Positions 18,012 to 21,816 of a DNA stretch of 64,000 nucleotides are shown piece after piece (the stretch's first letter is position 1; every line of letters begins with the position of its first letter). The stretch is from Chitinophagaceae bacterium (GTDB lineage Bacteria; Bacteroidota; Bacteroidia; Chitinophagales; Chitinophagaceae): NCBI GenBank assembly GCA_947447265.1, contig CANFKC010000023.1, positions 1-64,000 on the forward strand, written 5' to 3'. The notes beneath the pieces are model-generated. The model was given only the letters and a program-made list of their open reading frames with translations. It ran no database searches and had not been told where the DNA came from. Position numbers and translations under genes: made by a program.

Positions 18012-18257
18012 ATGATACAAACTGTAGTCACTCCACAAAAAACTGATTTCGACATGTCGGTTTCACTGCCGGCAGATTATGTGGGAAAGGAAGTTCATGT
18101 ATTATTTTATATTGACGACGAAGTTAAGAAAACAACGACAACAGTTTTACCCAAGAAAAAGCCTTCCGATTATTTTGGAATATTGACGCAAGAAGAGGGT
18201 GAAAAATTCGATAAGCACATCAATCAAGTACGTAACGAATGGGAGAGAGATATTTAA
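18012..18257 (+). CDS. Antitoxin of VapBC-like pair 1
   Basis: 81 residues. The N-terminal half (DFDMSVSLPADYVGKEVHV) looks like a short beta-rich domain. The C-terminal half (KKKPSDYFGILTQEEGEKF...EWERDI) is helical and charged, as expected for a toxin-wrapping tail. I do not recognise a DNA-binding fold with certainty. The antitoxin role is inferred from position: it precedes a PIN-domain gene and overlaps it by 19 bases, so the toxin start lies inside its last codons (EWERDI). Confidence 0.8.
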   Translation: MIQTVVTPQKTDFDMSVSLPADYVGKEVHVLFYIDDEVKKTTTTVLPKKKPSDYFGILTQEEGEKFDKHINQVRNEWERDI

Positions 18258-18628
18258 TTGACACGAATGTCATTTCTCACCTCTTTGCAGGGCGGCTGCC
18301 GGAACCGGCAAAAGAATTTTTAAAGAACATTATTAATGATGAGTTCATTATTTCTGTTGCTATCGAAATAGAAGTATTGACCTATCATGATGTACCGGGT
18401 AAAATGCCGCTTATCGAAGAATTTATAGGCCTCGCGACTATTCTGCCACTCGATAAAGAAGTAACAAAAAAAGCAACAGAACTGCGTAGAAAGCAACGGA
18501 AATTAAGATTAGGAGATACTATTATTGCCGCCACGGCACTGGTTCATAATTTGACAATTCTAACTAACAATACGAAAGACTTTATGAATATTAAGGGCTT
18601 AAAAATAATTGACCCTCATACGCTATAG
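18239..18628 (+). CDS. PIN-domain toxin (VapC-like), pair 1
   Basis: 129 residues. PIN-domain acidic residues are visible: D in YLIDTNVI (residue 8), E in AIEIEVLTY, D in LRLGDTIIAATA and D in NTKDF. PIN toxins are magnesium-dependent ribonucleases, often cutting tRNA. The ATG at 18239 lies 19 bases before the end of the antitoxin frame. The same arrangement is found at 46605. Confidence 0.88.
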   Translation: MGERYLIDTNVISHLFAGRLPEPAKEFLKNIINDEFIISVAIEIEVLTYHDVPGKMPLIEEFIGLATILPLDKEVTKKATELRRKQRKLRLGDTIIAATALVHNLTILTNNTKDFMNIKGLKIIDPHTL

Positions 18629-18664: not shown

Positions 18665-18757
18665 TCTTTAATTAAACCGGTGATGACGAACATCACTCCT
18701 GCTGTTCCCTACCTTAACACGCTTTTTAGAAACACATTACCTACCTTTACATTACGA

Positions 18758-19156
18758 ATGAAACGCTTTTTTGTAACCATATTATCAATACTATACCTGG
18801 CCAGCGCCCTGGGCGCTACGGTTGATGTACATTATTGTATGGGCAAAAGTGTAGGCGCCAACTTTGTACATAAAGAAGATGACAAATGCCGTAAATGTGG
18901 CATGCACAAAAGCAAAAGCAAGGGTTGCTGCGAAGACCGGCAGGAAACGCTTAAAACAAGCGACCATCAGGCGGCAAATCTATCTTTCAATATTACTCCT
19001 GCAGCGGTAGCAATTCTTCCTGTTTCTACCTGGGTTTCCAAGCCGGACTTACGTGTTTTAACCTTCCGCACATCAAGGTCTGTATTGGTAAACGCCCCTC
19101 CCAACACCTGGAGAACCCGGCCTATTTACCTTTGCATCCGCAACTTCAGAATTTGA
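18758..19156 (+). CDS. HYC_CC_PP-family protein (first gene of metal cluster)
   Basis: About 132 residues from the ATG at 18758 (MKRFFVTILS), preferred because it starts a good signal peptide; the frame is open further upstream. The three defining motifs are seen in order: VHYCMGKS, KGCCEDRQ with neighbouring CRKCG, and NAPP near the end. The family is of unknown biochemical function, periplasmic or secreted, and Cys/His-rich enough to bind metal. It precedes two HMA-domain genes and an outer-membrane gene on the same strand, pointing to copper or other soft-metal handling; that role is inferred. Confidence 0.8.
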   Translation: MKRFFVTILSILYLASALGATVDVHYCMGKSVGANFVHKEDDKCRKCGMHKSKSKGCCEDRQETLKTSDHQAANLSFNITPAAVAILPVSTWVSKPDLRVLTFRTSRSVLVNAPPNTWRTRPIYLCIRNFRI

Positions 19157-19319
19157 TACTTTTATCTAGCCCCTTAGCTTTAATGCAAGGCGCAAGTCAT
19201 AACATTTAACCGTTTGTGCCCCCGCTGAAACTATTGGCGGCATGTGGTAACATCGGCAATTAATCTTGTATTGTGCCAGAGCACAATTCAGCATCAATCA
19301 AATTCAAATTCTAACAAAA

Positions 19320-19661
19320 ATGAACAAGTTAAAAGTAATAGCTACGGCTATAGTTATGTTTGCAGGTATATCTGCATCTTATGCAAAATCAGTTTCTGAA
19401 ACTGTAAAAGTATCTGGCAATTGCGGCATGTGCGAAAAGAAAATAGAAGCTGCTGCTAAAAAAGCGGGCGCTAAAAAAGCGCTGTGGGACAAGAAATCAA
19501 AAGTACTGTCCATAACTTACGATGACGCTAAAACCAGCAACGATGCCATTCAAAAAGAGGTAGCATCTGTAGGCTACGATACCGAAAAATATGCCGGTGA
19601 TATGACCGCATATAAAAGCCTGGAAGAATGCTGCCACTACGATGATAAAAGGGCACAGTAA
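19320..19661 (+). CDS. Exported heavy-metal-associated (HMA) domain protein
   Basis: 113 residues. A signal peptide (MNKLKVIATAIVMFAGISASYA) is followed by an HMA-like domain with CGMC in place of CXXC (SGNCGMCEKKIEAAAKKAG) and LSITYDDAKTSNDAIQKEVASVGYD. The end has a second Cys/His group (ECCHYDD). It probably acts as a periplasmic metal-binding protein. The ATG at 19320 begins the signal peptide; earlier in-frame codons are not needed. Confidence 0.88.
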   Translation: MNKLKVIATAIVMFAGISASYAKSVSETVKVSGNCGMCEKKIEAAAKKAGAKKALWDKKSKVLSITYDDAKTSNDAIQKEVASVGYDTEKYAGDMTAYKSLEECCHYDDKRAQ

Positions 19662-19786
19662 TATTTTAGCTGCCCCGCACTTACAAGTGTGGGACGCCAG
19701 ATAAACATGTGGAGACGCGGTCTATTGCGTCTCCACTTTTGAAAAAGATGCAAAATAATTGCATCGAAATCCTAAAAAATAAAACA

Positions 19787-20329
19787 ATGAAAAAAATAAT
19801 CGTAGCCATATTTATGCTGGTACTTACAATGCCAACAATGGCCCAGATAAAATCAGCATCGCTTACCGCCAGCGGACTTACCTGCAGCATGTGCAGCAAG
19901 GCCATATACAAGGCTCTAAGTGCGGTTAGCTCAGTAAAAGAAGTAACAGTAGACATTGAAAAATCGACCTATGCCATTCAATTTAAAGAAGGAGAAAAAA
20001 TAGTACTGGACGATATTAAAAATGCCGTTACCGGCGCCGGATTTTCAGTCGAATCGATGCAGGTAACTGCAGCTATTGACAAACAAGATGTAGCTGATGA
20101 CACCCATGTAAATATCGGGGGCAGCACATTTCATTTCGTGCATGTAAATAAACAAACACTCCAGGGCGATGCTACCTTTAGGTTGCTTGATAAAAATTTC
20201 GTCTCAAAAGCGGAATACAACAAGTACCATAAATACACTAAGATGAAGTGCTACGAAACCGGGTACATGAATAGCTGTTGCCCGAAAGACAAAAAACTTG
20301 AAAACCGCATCTATCATGTCACGCTATAA
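19787..20329 (+). CDS. Exported HMA-domain protein with Cys-rich C-terminal extension
   Basis: About 180 residues from the ATG at 19787 (MKKIIVAIFMLV), which starts a signal peptide ending near MAQ. Residues 25-95 form an HMA-like domain with GLTCSMCSKAIYKAL. The second half has H-rich and Cys-rich parts (GGSTFHFVHVN, CYETGYMNSCCP) not usual in simple metallochaperones. The next gene overlaps its 3' end by 14 bases. It probably binds and passes on metal in the periplasm. Confidence 0.85.
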   Translation: MKKIIVAIFMLVLTMPTMAQIKSASLTASGLTCSMCSKAIYKALSAVSSVKEVTVDIEKSTYAIQFKEGEKIVLDDIKNAVTGAGFSVESMQVTAAIDKQDVADDTHVNIGGSTFHFVHVNKQTLQGDATFRLLDKNFVSKAEYNKYHKYTKMKCYETGYMNSCCPKDKKLENRIYHVTL

Positions 20330-21128
20330 AGTACTATTGGCGCTGGTCATGATTTTTTACGTGCAGCGCATTTCGGCACAAGAGCTCTTTGTTTATTCAG
20401 AACCGGCAAGTAATATGCCTAAAAGATCAGTCGGTATACGCATGACCAACTGGCTGATGAACGATGCCGCAGCAGACAAAATAAACTACCATCTGGTACC
20501 GGAACTAATGTGGGGTGTAACGAAAAAAATAATGGTACACGCCGATGCTTTTATAAGTAACAGAGAAGGCGGGCTTGCCCTGGAAGGGGTTGGCGCGTAT
20601 GCAAAATACCGCTTCTTCAGTACCGATAAAGTACACAGGCACCTGAGGATGGCGGCATTCGGCAGGGTTACTACCAATAATGCACCGGTGCACCAGGAGG
20701 AAATTGCCACCTACGGCCATAATTCTGGTTATCAGTTAGGGCTGGTTGGTACACAGCTGTTACACAAAACAGCAATTTCCCTTACCGGCTATTACGAGCG
20801 CGCGCTAAACAATGGTAGCAATGAGCGCCCTGCCGCACTGGCAAGTAATGATATCAGTTACAGCCTCTCGGTTGGCCACCTTATAATGCCGGTACATTAC
20901 ACTAATTATAAGCAGACCAACTTCAATATAATGGCAGAACTGCTTGGCCAGCTGCAGCCTGAAAATGGGCACCAATACCTTGATATTGCACCATCTGCAC
21001 AATTCATTTTTAACAGCCAGACAAGGGTTGATATTGGCTACAGACGCCAACTATATAGCAATATGCTGAGAAGTGCGCCAAATGGGCTGCTGATAAGGGT
21101 AGAACACCTTTTGTATAATGTTTTGTAA
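20316..21128 (+). CDS. Outer-membrane-like protein of the metal cluster
   Basis: 270 residues from the ATG at 20316 (MSRYKVLLALVMIFYVQRISAQ), which begins a signal peptide; an upstream in-frame TTG is less likely. The mature part alternates hydrophobic and polar residues and ends in a typical beta-signal-like segment. There is no Cys pair. It overlaps the preceding HMA gene by 14 bases, so the two are translationally coupled. It may be a transport or sensing barrel for the metal bound by its neighbours. Confidence 0.8.
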   Translation: MSRYKVLLALVMIFYVQRISAQELFVYSEPASNMPKRSVGIRMTNWLMNDAAADKINYHLVPELMWGVTKKIMVHADAFISNREGGLALEGVGAYAKYRFFSTDKVHRHLRMAAFGRVTTNNAPVHQEEIATYGHNSGYQLGLVGTQLLHKTAISLTGYYERALNNGSNERPAALASNDISYSLSVGHLIMPVHYTNYKQTNFNIMAELLGQLQPENGHQYLDIAPSAQFIFNSQTRVDIGYRRQLYSNMLRSAPNGLLIRVEHLLYNVL

Positions 21129-21378: not shown

Positions 21379-21816
21379 ATGATCACATCTGAACACAAAC
21401 CATCCTTACTTCCGGCAATACTAACTATGAAATGCCCGAGCTGCAGAAAAGGGTTTGTGTTCAAAAATAAAAGCATGTTCCCACTTGGCGAAACGGTAAA
21501 TCTAAAAGAACATTGCGAGGTATGCGGACAGAAACTAACCTCAGAAAAAAACAATGGTGCAGGCATGAACTATGTACTTACCGTGGTTATTTTCTTCCTG
21601 AATCTTGCCTGGTATTGCCCGTTGTATATTTCCCTGAAGAAGAACCCTAACGAAAATTGGTACGAAAATAACAGTGTGGAATGGTACCTCGCCAGCAGCA
21701 CTTTTATCGTTATTATTTTACAGCCGTGGCTCTGGCGTATGTCGCGCATGCTATACCTTTACTTGTATACGCAATTCGGTGCGAGTGCTGAGGCGACAGT
21801 GGAGAATAAGGGGTAG
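21379..21816 (+). CDS. DUF983 family membrane protein
   Basis: 145 residues. The N-terminus has a zinc-ribbon-like pair of Cys knuckles (MKCPSCRKGFVF and CEVCGQKL), followed by two hydrophobic membrane segments (about 62-84 and 103-124), the DUF983 layout. Function is unknown; in proteobacteria DUF983 genes occur near cytochrome oxidase genes. It stands alone here. Confidence 0.88.
   Translation: MITSEHKPSLLPAILTMKCPSCRKGFVFKNKSMFPLGETVNLKEHCEVCGQKLTSEKNNGAGMNYVLTVVIFFLNLAWYCPLYISLKKNPNENWYENNSVEWYLASSTFIVIILQPWLWRMSRMLYLYLYTQFGASAEATVENKG

Follow-up and report, generated by a model that had tools for sequence, protein, structure and literature searches.

What could a cluster of small genes for exported proteins and an outer-membrane barrel do with metal when no gene for a metal pump stands among them? 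The question is raised by four genes, HYC, HMA1, HMA2 and OMP, at positions 18758–21128 of a 64,000-nucleotide stretch of Chitinophagaceae bacterium DNA (contig CANFKC010000023.1, GenBank assembly GCA_947447265.1), referred to here as the window. The window belongs to contig C23 of the genome, designated G000, whose assembly comprises 5.06 Mb at 98.77% completeness. On balance, we lean towards the reading that HMA2 and OMP form a chaperone–barrel pair that handles copper at the outer membrane, while HYC and HMA1 serve as periplasmic thiol buffers; within it, we infer the binding of metal, the metal handled by the window strain, the contact between HMA2 and OMP, transport and its direction. The features of the cluster are:

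18758–19156, + strand: HYC, 132 aa, a small exported Cys/His protein of the HYC_CC_PP family.
19320–19661, + strand: HMA1, 113 aa, an exported MerP-like protein with a GNCGMC motif and a C-terminal CCHY.
19787–20329, + strand: HMA2, 180 aa, exported, with an HMA domain and a predicted C-terminal domain.
20316–21128, + strand: OMP, 270 aa, a predicted 12-strand outer-membrane barrel.
20316–20329, + strand: overlap of the HMA2 and OMP reading frames, 14 nt, taking the ATG at 20316 as the OMP start.

A first-pass annotation had proposed these four genes, their order and the 14-base overlap, all of which were borne out by open reading frame coordinates and family searches. HYC was placed in its family by NCBIfam (NF047658, HYC_CC_PP, 49.4 bits against a cut-off of 28). 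HMA1 has the CxxC motif and scored below the Pfam HMA cut-off (PF00403, 19.4 against 24.8 bits), and is thus HMA-like only; its likeness to MerP was weak and outside the family (TIGR02052, 31.6 bits against 92.55). Twenty-three HMA1 homologues were aligned, and the homologues of both HYC and HMA1 were Cys-rich. Signal peptides of the exported proteins were judged by eye. The frame overlap probably provides translational coupling. The same −14 spacing was found in 10 further loci among 66 measured by script, which in the window itself took an upstream TTG as the OMP start and returned −32 instead of −14.

Conservation of the cluster was analysed in a neighbourhood survey of 95 non-redundant loci, selected on their similarity to HMA2. 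These derived from the window and 113 other loci, from which four without an HMA2 label (L063, L071, L072, L076) and 15 sequence duplicates were dropped. Upstream of HMA2, HYC was present in 85 loci and HMA1 in 65. OMP lay downstream of HMA2 in 90, next to it in 67 and separated from it by a TlpA-like thioredoxin gene in 23; of the other five loci, two ended at a contig edge and three had no OMP by label. Three loci on contigs titled Phycisphaerales, Williamsia and Streptomyces griseus (L102, L135 and L143) carry a Bacteroidota-type cluster or its HMA2, and are probably mislabelled assemblies. Searches of 99 relatives (E ≤ 0.001) detected OMP in 31 and HMA2 in 50, many of the weak HMA2 rows sitting in the frames of other HMA proteins or ATPases. 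The HMA2 alignment used 32 of 34 matches (without L063 and L071) and the OMP alignment 29 of 32 (without L063, L071 and L072); when named genomes were scanned with the former, the best 80 of 531 HMA2-like stretches were taken.

An even sample of 148 Bacteroidota genomes, G000 included, was also scanned, with strong matches defined as E < 1e-60 for OMP and E ≤ 1e-20 for HMA2, and with only some first-look candidates scored in most genomes. Strong OMP matches occurred in 10 genomes and HMA2 matches in 12. All 10 OMP genomes had an adjoining HMA2, with a thioredoxin gene in between in G207. HYC was found in 46 of the 148 genomes and adjoined HMA2–OMP in just five of the 10 (G000, G014, G173, G207 and G230); HMA2–OMP is therefore the tightest unit, with HYC and HMA1 as frequent companions. 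Chance grouping of the four genes was rejected by the two surveys together. The first-pass annotation had described a metal-handling cluster of exported proteins and an outer-membrane barrel, and had held that homologues lying unclustered elsewhere would count against it. Clustering recurs in other genomes in both surveys, which supports that description.

In HMA2, Pfam recognised an HMA domain at about residues 20–97 (PF00403, 36.8 bits against a cut-off of 24.8), and the MerP score (TIGR02052) was 28.5 bits, below the cut-off of 92.55. The AlphaFold model had a mean pLDDT of 91.4, with a second, mainly beta region at about residues 98–180. The VIA structural rows cover mainly residues 19–97. 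Because model confidence was high over residues 101–180 (mean pLDDT about 92; blocks of 91–97, except 73 for 161–170), the extension looks like a domain. What had been described as an added His/Cys tail does carry conserved His and Cys residues, and is better described as a predicted second domain than as a mere tail. Across 95 sequences, conservation was 100% for Cys33 and Cys36, 92% for Cys155, and 84% for Cys164 and Cys165, which fall in the least certain stretch of the model (161–170). His107, His116 and His177 were conserved in 89%, 90% and 91%, and Met153 lay within the set conserved at 80–92%.

OMP was modelled by AlphaFold as 12 strands with a mean pLDDT of 89.5. Family searches with 29 members gave no NCBIfam match (0/29) and one weak, unrelated Pfam match (1/29), and the OMP alignment, run against solved structures, returned only two weak, unrelated rows. 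Across 90 sequences, conservation was 100% for His109, 96% for Met73, 88% for Met65 and 75% for His75.

The metal was approached through the genes that adjoin the cluster in relatives. The copper-type classes counted were P1B ATPase, RND, CusB, multicopper oxidase, AraC-HMA regulator, Met-rich OMP and two TonB receptor types, all assigned by phmmer, with CopA labels given via the DKTGT motif. The first four are, on general grounds, genes of copper or metal transport. Pfam backed the labels of eight of 10 representative neighbours, the two Met-rich OMPs matching no family, and called no HMA in the representative AraC protein or HMA-fused TonB receptor. At least one copper-type gene lay within three genes of the core in 41 of the 95 loci, against 12 of 95 at distance 4–7. 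Such genes numbered 67 of 530 near the core and 17 of 490 at distance 4–7, and the four transport classes alone gave 22 against 7; all these counts are inflated, the loci being HMA2-selected and the neighbour queries drawn from the same loci after inspection. The neighbours point to copper as the metal of this clade.

Individual loci illustrate the association. Flavobacterium cerinum (L140) has the order RND–CusB–P1B–HYC–HMA1–HMA2–OMP–P1B–multicopper oxidase, and Sediminibacterium ginsengisoli (L093) has the core, a 128-aa gene, a CusA–CusC fusion and CusB. Further families of the class (L168, L169, L170 and L174) have the pair close to genes of the P1B, AraC-HMA, multicopper oxidase or RND type, as named by similarity across loci. 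A CopA P-type ATPase stands directly upstream of HYC in four congener genomes (L041, L043, L044 and L046) and does not in two congener loci with readable upstream sequence (L042 and L073). In two genomes, TonB-dependent receptors with an HMA1-like N-terminal part occur near the core (L056:11165-13774 and L068:8924-11506).

The window gave no match to congener CopA, AraC-HMA regulator, TonB receptor or Met-rich OMP queries, and none of the genome's E1-E2 ATPase or RND matches was located on its contig. The cluster contains no RND pump gene, as a CusCBA system would, and no P1B ATPase adjoins its core, as in a CopA-linked one. CopA was found on contig C14 (G000:C14:88482-90704; L074:8483-10705), 73% identical to the L041 CopA and with no core genes beside it; judged by gene position, CopA and the core genes have parted in this genome. 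Contig C32 encodes a 1467-aa CusA-type protein, 52% identical to the L093 CusA–CusC fusion (whose TolC-type end was confirmed in L093 only), together with a CusB (41%). An AraC-HMA homologue (51%) lies on C22 (C22:66557-67114; L162:10552-11163), and a TonB receptor homologue (66%) on C26. Because CopA is on C14 and the CusA-type and CusB genes are on C32, the parts of the copper system are, as far as their contig positions tell, dispersed and not absent. The first-pass statement that P-type ATPase and CusCBA genes are missing thus stands for the window and the contig, and fails for the genome. Its suggestion of a purely periplasmic/outer-membrane route lost its support, given CopA upstream of HYC in four congeners and the transporters elsewhere in G000. 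The genome has a second HYC gene on C6 (L179, G000:C6:83000-99000); after one gene, about 1.4–3.2 kb on, it is followed by a gene weakly similar to multicopper oxidase (57.8 bits) and one for a Met/His-rich OMP (617 bits).

Two weak OMP matches (L177 and L178) were also barrel–HMA pairs. L177 comprises a MerR-family regulator, which reaches no cut-off of its own, then genes for a barrel of 255 aa, an HMA protein of 104 aa, a MerTP fusion (241 bits against a cut-off of 180) and MerA (542.6 against 454.45). Used as a query, the L177 barrel matched in 23 of 395 genomes, seven strongly (G115, the source of L177, G232, G244, G441, G222, G326 and G195) and 16 weakly. Nine of the weak rows were copper-type OMPs with HMA2 adjoining (G032, G151, G161, G207, G234, G310, G337, G375 and G467), two (G246 and G279) matched neither HMA2 nor the OMP profile over the stretch read, and five (G177, G348, G379, G427 and G465) lay outside the neighbour reading. 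In five of the seven strong genomes, MerTP and/or MerA lay 0 to about 6.5 kb from the barrel, as called by family cut-off in G115 and G232 and by similarity in G244, G441 and G195. G222 and G326 instead had an HMA1-like protein and a P1B ATPase near the barrel. Neighbours of the remote barrels were mostly named by similarity to other loci, apart from those checked against family libraries, which include the L177 set. In G195, the mer-linked OMP gene is split into two frames beside MerTP/MerA-like genes (L208:7777-8483).

The broken G195 gene was left out of further comparison, leaving six remote barrels, four near mer genes and two near a P1B ATPase. Profile–profile comparison aligned them with the copper-type OMPs over 243 columns (probability 99.0, E 4e-18); controls gave E 0.4 for the reversed alignment, and 0.5 and 4.0 for an unrelated porin family. 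The six lack the Met/His set of the copper clade (0/6 at positions 73, 75 and 109; one His and no Met at position 65), and all six retain Lys97, Asp104, Arg111, Tyr195, Asn204, Glu208 and Gln229. A plasmid collection searched with both OMP types gave no match. In the window genome, at the completeness given above, the best MerA score was 313.7 bits and none passed the cut-off of 454.45, so mercury resistance in this strain was not supported.

In the mechanism that we propose, HYC and HMA1 would be thiol-rich periplasmic binders of Cu(I), and HMA2 would hold Cu(I) both by its CxxC and by a second His/Cys/Met set. HMA2 would hand Cu(I) to, or receive it from, the periplasmic mouth of the OMP barrel, which would itself be passive, the flow being set by what feeds the periplasm. 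The CopA–HYC–HMA1–HMA2–OMP order in four congeners is read as an outward chain, and in the copper clade outward flow, in which CopA-delivered periplasmic copper leaves the cell, seems somewhat likelier than inward capture. The mer-linked relatives, in turn, suggest that a pair of this kind may also serve inward flow. In mer systems the metal must move inward. Remote OMP homologues lie near MerTP and/or MerA in five of seven genomes, and in 12 of the 95 loci a TonB receptor type stands no more than three genes from the core; both would fit a pair in which copper enters through OMP and is caught by HMA2 at the periplasmic mouth, much as MerP takes up mercury, whether to supply cuproenzymes or to limit free Cu(I). 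Most other counted neighbours in the copper clade, however, are of efflux or detoxification type (CopA, CusA/B, multicopper oxidase), and we regard this inward form, a share of the chaperone–barrel reading, as rather unlikely.

The Cys-rich character of HYC and HMA1 homologues would equally suit periplasmic buffering only, with OMP as a docking or sorting anchor that transports nothing, and both transport by OMP and its lumen site are model-based proposals. The tight pairing of OMP with HMA2 argues against this, as does the retention of the barrel Met/His residues in the copper clade and not in the six remote barrels; buffering only seems unlikely. Less probable still is that the proteins serve a different metal, or thiol stress in general (silver, gold, mercury or redox), and that the copper-type neighbours are incidental. 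The TlpA-like thioredoxin gene that separates HMA2 from OMP in 23 of 95 loci and the mer linkage of remote OMP relatives are consistent with such a role, and so are the loci that have no counted copper-type neighbour. It fits poorly with the copper-type classes being commoner next to the core than farther out, and with the lack of a MerA over the cut-off in the window genome.

Several observations weigh against the copper chaperone–barrel reading itself. In more than half of the loci (54 of 95), none of the copper-type classes counted is represented within three genes of the core, and the counts themselves are inflated, as described above. HMA2 occurs without OMP in two of 12 genomes (G218 and G191), and HYC adjoins only half of the pairs. 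In the window, the place upstream of HYC that holds CopA in four congeners has what by eye are ATP synthase subunit genes, together with a VapC-like pair, and the AraC-HMA homologue of the genome has lost the first motif Cys (MVSIRC for MVCSRC). The fold matches of OMP are generic for 12-strand barrels, and the putative lumen-facing placement of residues 65, 73, 75 and 109 was read from strand parity only.

Candidate expression signals were found at two places in the cluster:

18742–18749, + strand: candidate Bacteroidota −7 promoter element, TACCTTTA, ending 8 bases before the HYC start codon.
19662–19786, + strand: HMA1–HMA2 spacer with strong hairpins, one stem at 19709–19736.

We read TACCTTTA as a possible −7 element by the consensus TAnnTTTG, and a comparable TAtcTTTG stands at the same place in L041, L043 and L044. 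The window spacer folded with a z-score of −7.2, none of 200 shuffles being equally stable. Six congener spacers (L041, L043, L044, L046, L028 and L073) gave z-scores of −4.4 to −5.3, each beating all 200 shuffles, and differ in sequence; all seven were picked for folding after hairpins had been noticed in them. The hairpin listing gives the window stem on the − strand only. In the wider locus set, spacer hairpins were common and not universal: spacers of 20–36 nt have none, as in L081 (titled Flavipsychrobacter; 23 nt). The hairpins are a possible attenuator or processing signal, and may partly uncouple expression of HMA1 from that of HMA2–OMP. An 18-bp perfect palindrome at 19270–19287, upstream of HMA1, was dropped as an operator because scanning the other loci did not recover it, the nearest counterpart being one 15-bp relative in L152.

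Just upstream of HYC, at 18012–18628, lie a small gene and a VapC-like PIN protein gene (PF01850, 55 bits), at the place occupied by CopA in four congeners. Downstream, 21379–21816 encodes a small DUF983-like protein with two CxxC pairs (18.8 bits, below the cut-off of 22.6), which is also found downstream of OMP in five congener loci.

Taken more broadly, the barrels may belong to an unnamed Bacteroidota family in which each member works with a periplasmic HMA chaperone as a specific outer-membrane gate for copper and mercury systems, on a common scaffold whose lumen ligands (Met65, Met73, His75 and His109 in the copper clade) would determine which metal is handled. We put this forward tentatively. 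The conserved pairing, with remote barrels near mercury-resistance genes, suggests an outer-membrane step in metal handling that is little described. In the text available of two mer reviews (PMC3466566 and PMC8261052), each mentions 'outer membrane' a single time, within a figure legend, and entry is drawn as diffusion. A study of Bizionia argentinensis copper genes (PMC11213822) compares exported HMA proteins with CopZ/MerP and one TonB receptor with OprC, and ascribes outer-membrane metal entry to porins and TonB-dependent proteins; its available portion names no HMA-paired barrel. A search of open-licence literature likewise returned no naming of the HMA–barrel pair and 0 matches for HYC_CC_PP. 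A strictly HMA-paired barrel whose relatives occur in both copper and mercury settings would allow the outer-membrane step to be tested directly in a small system of two genes.

Among known systems, the copper chaperone for SOD1 (CCS) resembles HMA2 in having an HMA domain, a beta-rich domain and a Cys-rich end, and appears in its Foldseek list. The two-domain rows, however, have rmsd values of about 6–19 Å, so that this is an analogy only, and HMA2 as a CCS-type chaperone was rejected as a resemblance in outline. OMP shares the 12-strand barrel fold with FapF (VIA-align Z 21.8, 215 residues, 2.7 Å) and the COG4313 channel (Z 20.4), but at 7–10% identity no common function is implied. The copper outer-membrane proteins PcoB/CopB are likewise barrels in copper loci, and PcoB (7pge) is a weak Foldseek match to OMP (E 3.5e-4, rank 38). 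Many unrelated barrels outscore it, however, and no Pfam sequence family is matched; in 10 cases the core loci carry separate Met-rich OMPs within three genes. CopA/CusCBA efflux is approached in relatives where CopA, CusA-type or CusB genes adjoin the core, but none of these is in the window cluster, and OMP is a single small barrel with no match to Pfam OEP (TolC-type). With the mer relay (MerP–MerT–MerA), the cluster shares an exported HMA protein as a periplasmic metal binder, and remote OMP homologues near MerTP and/or MerA. It differs in having no MerT or MerA, in a genome without a MerA over the cut-off, and in the extra domain of HMA2. The point of interest is the pairing with a barrel family that is common to copper and mercury loci.

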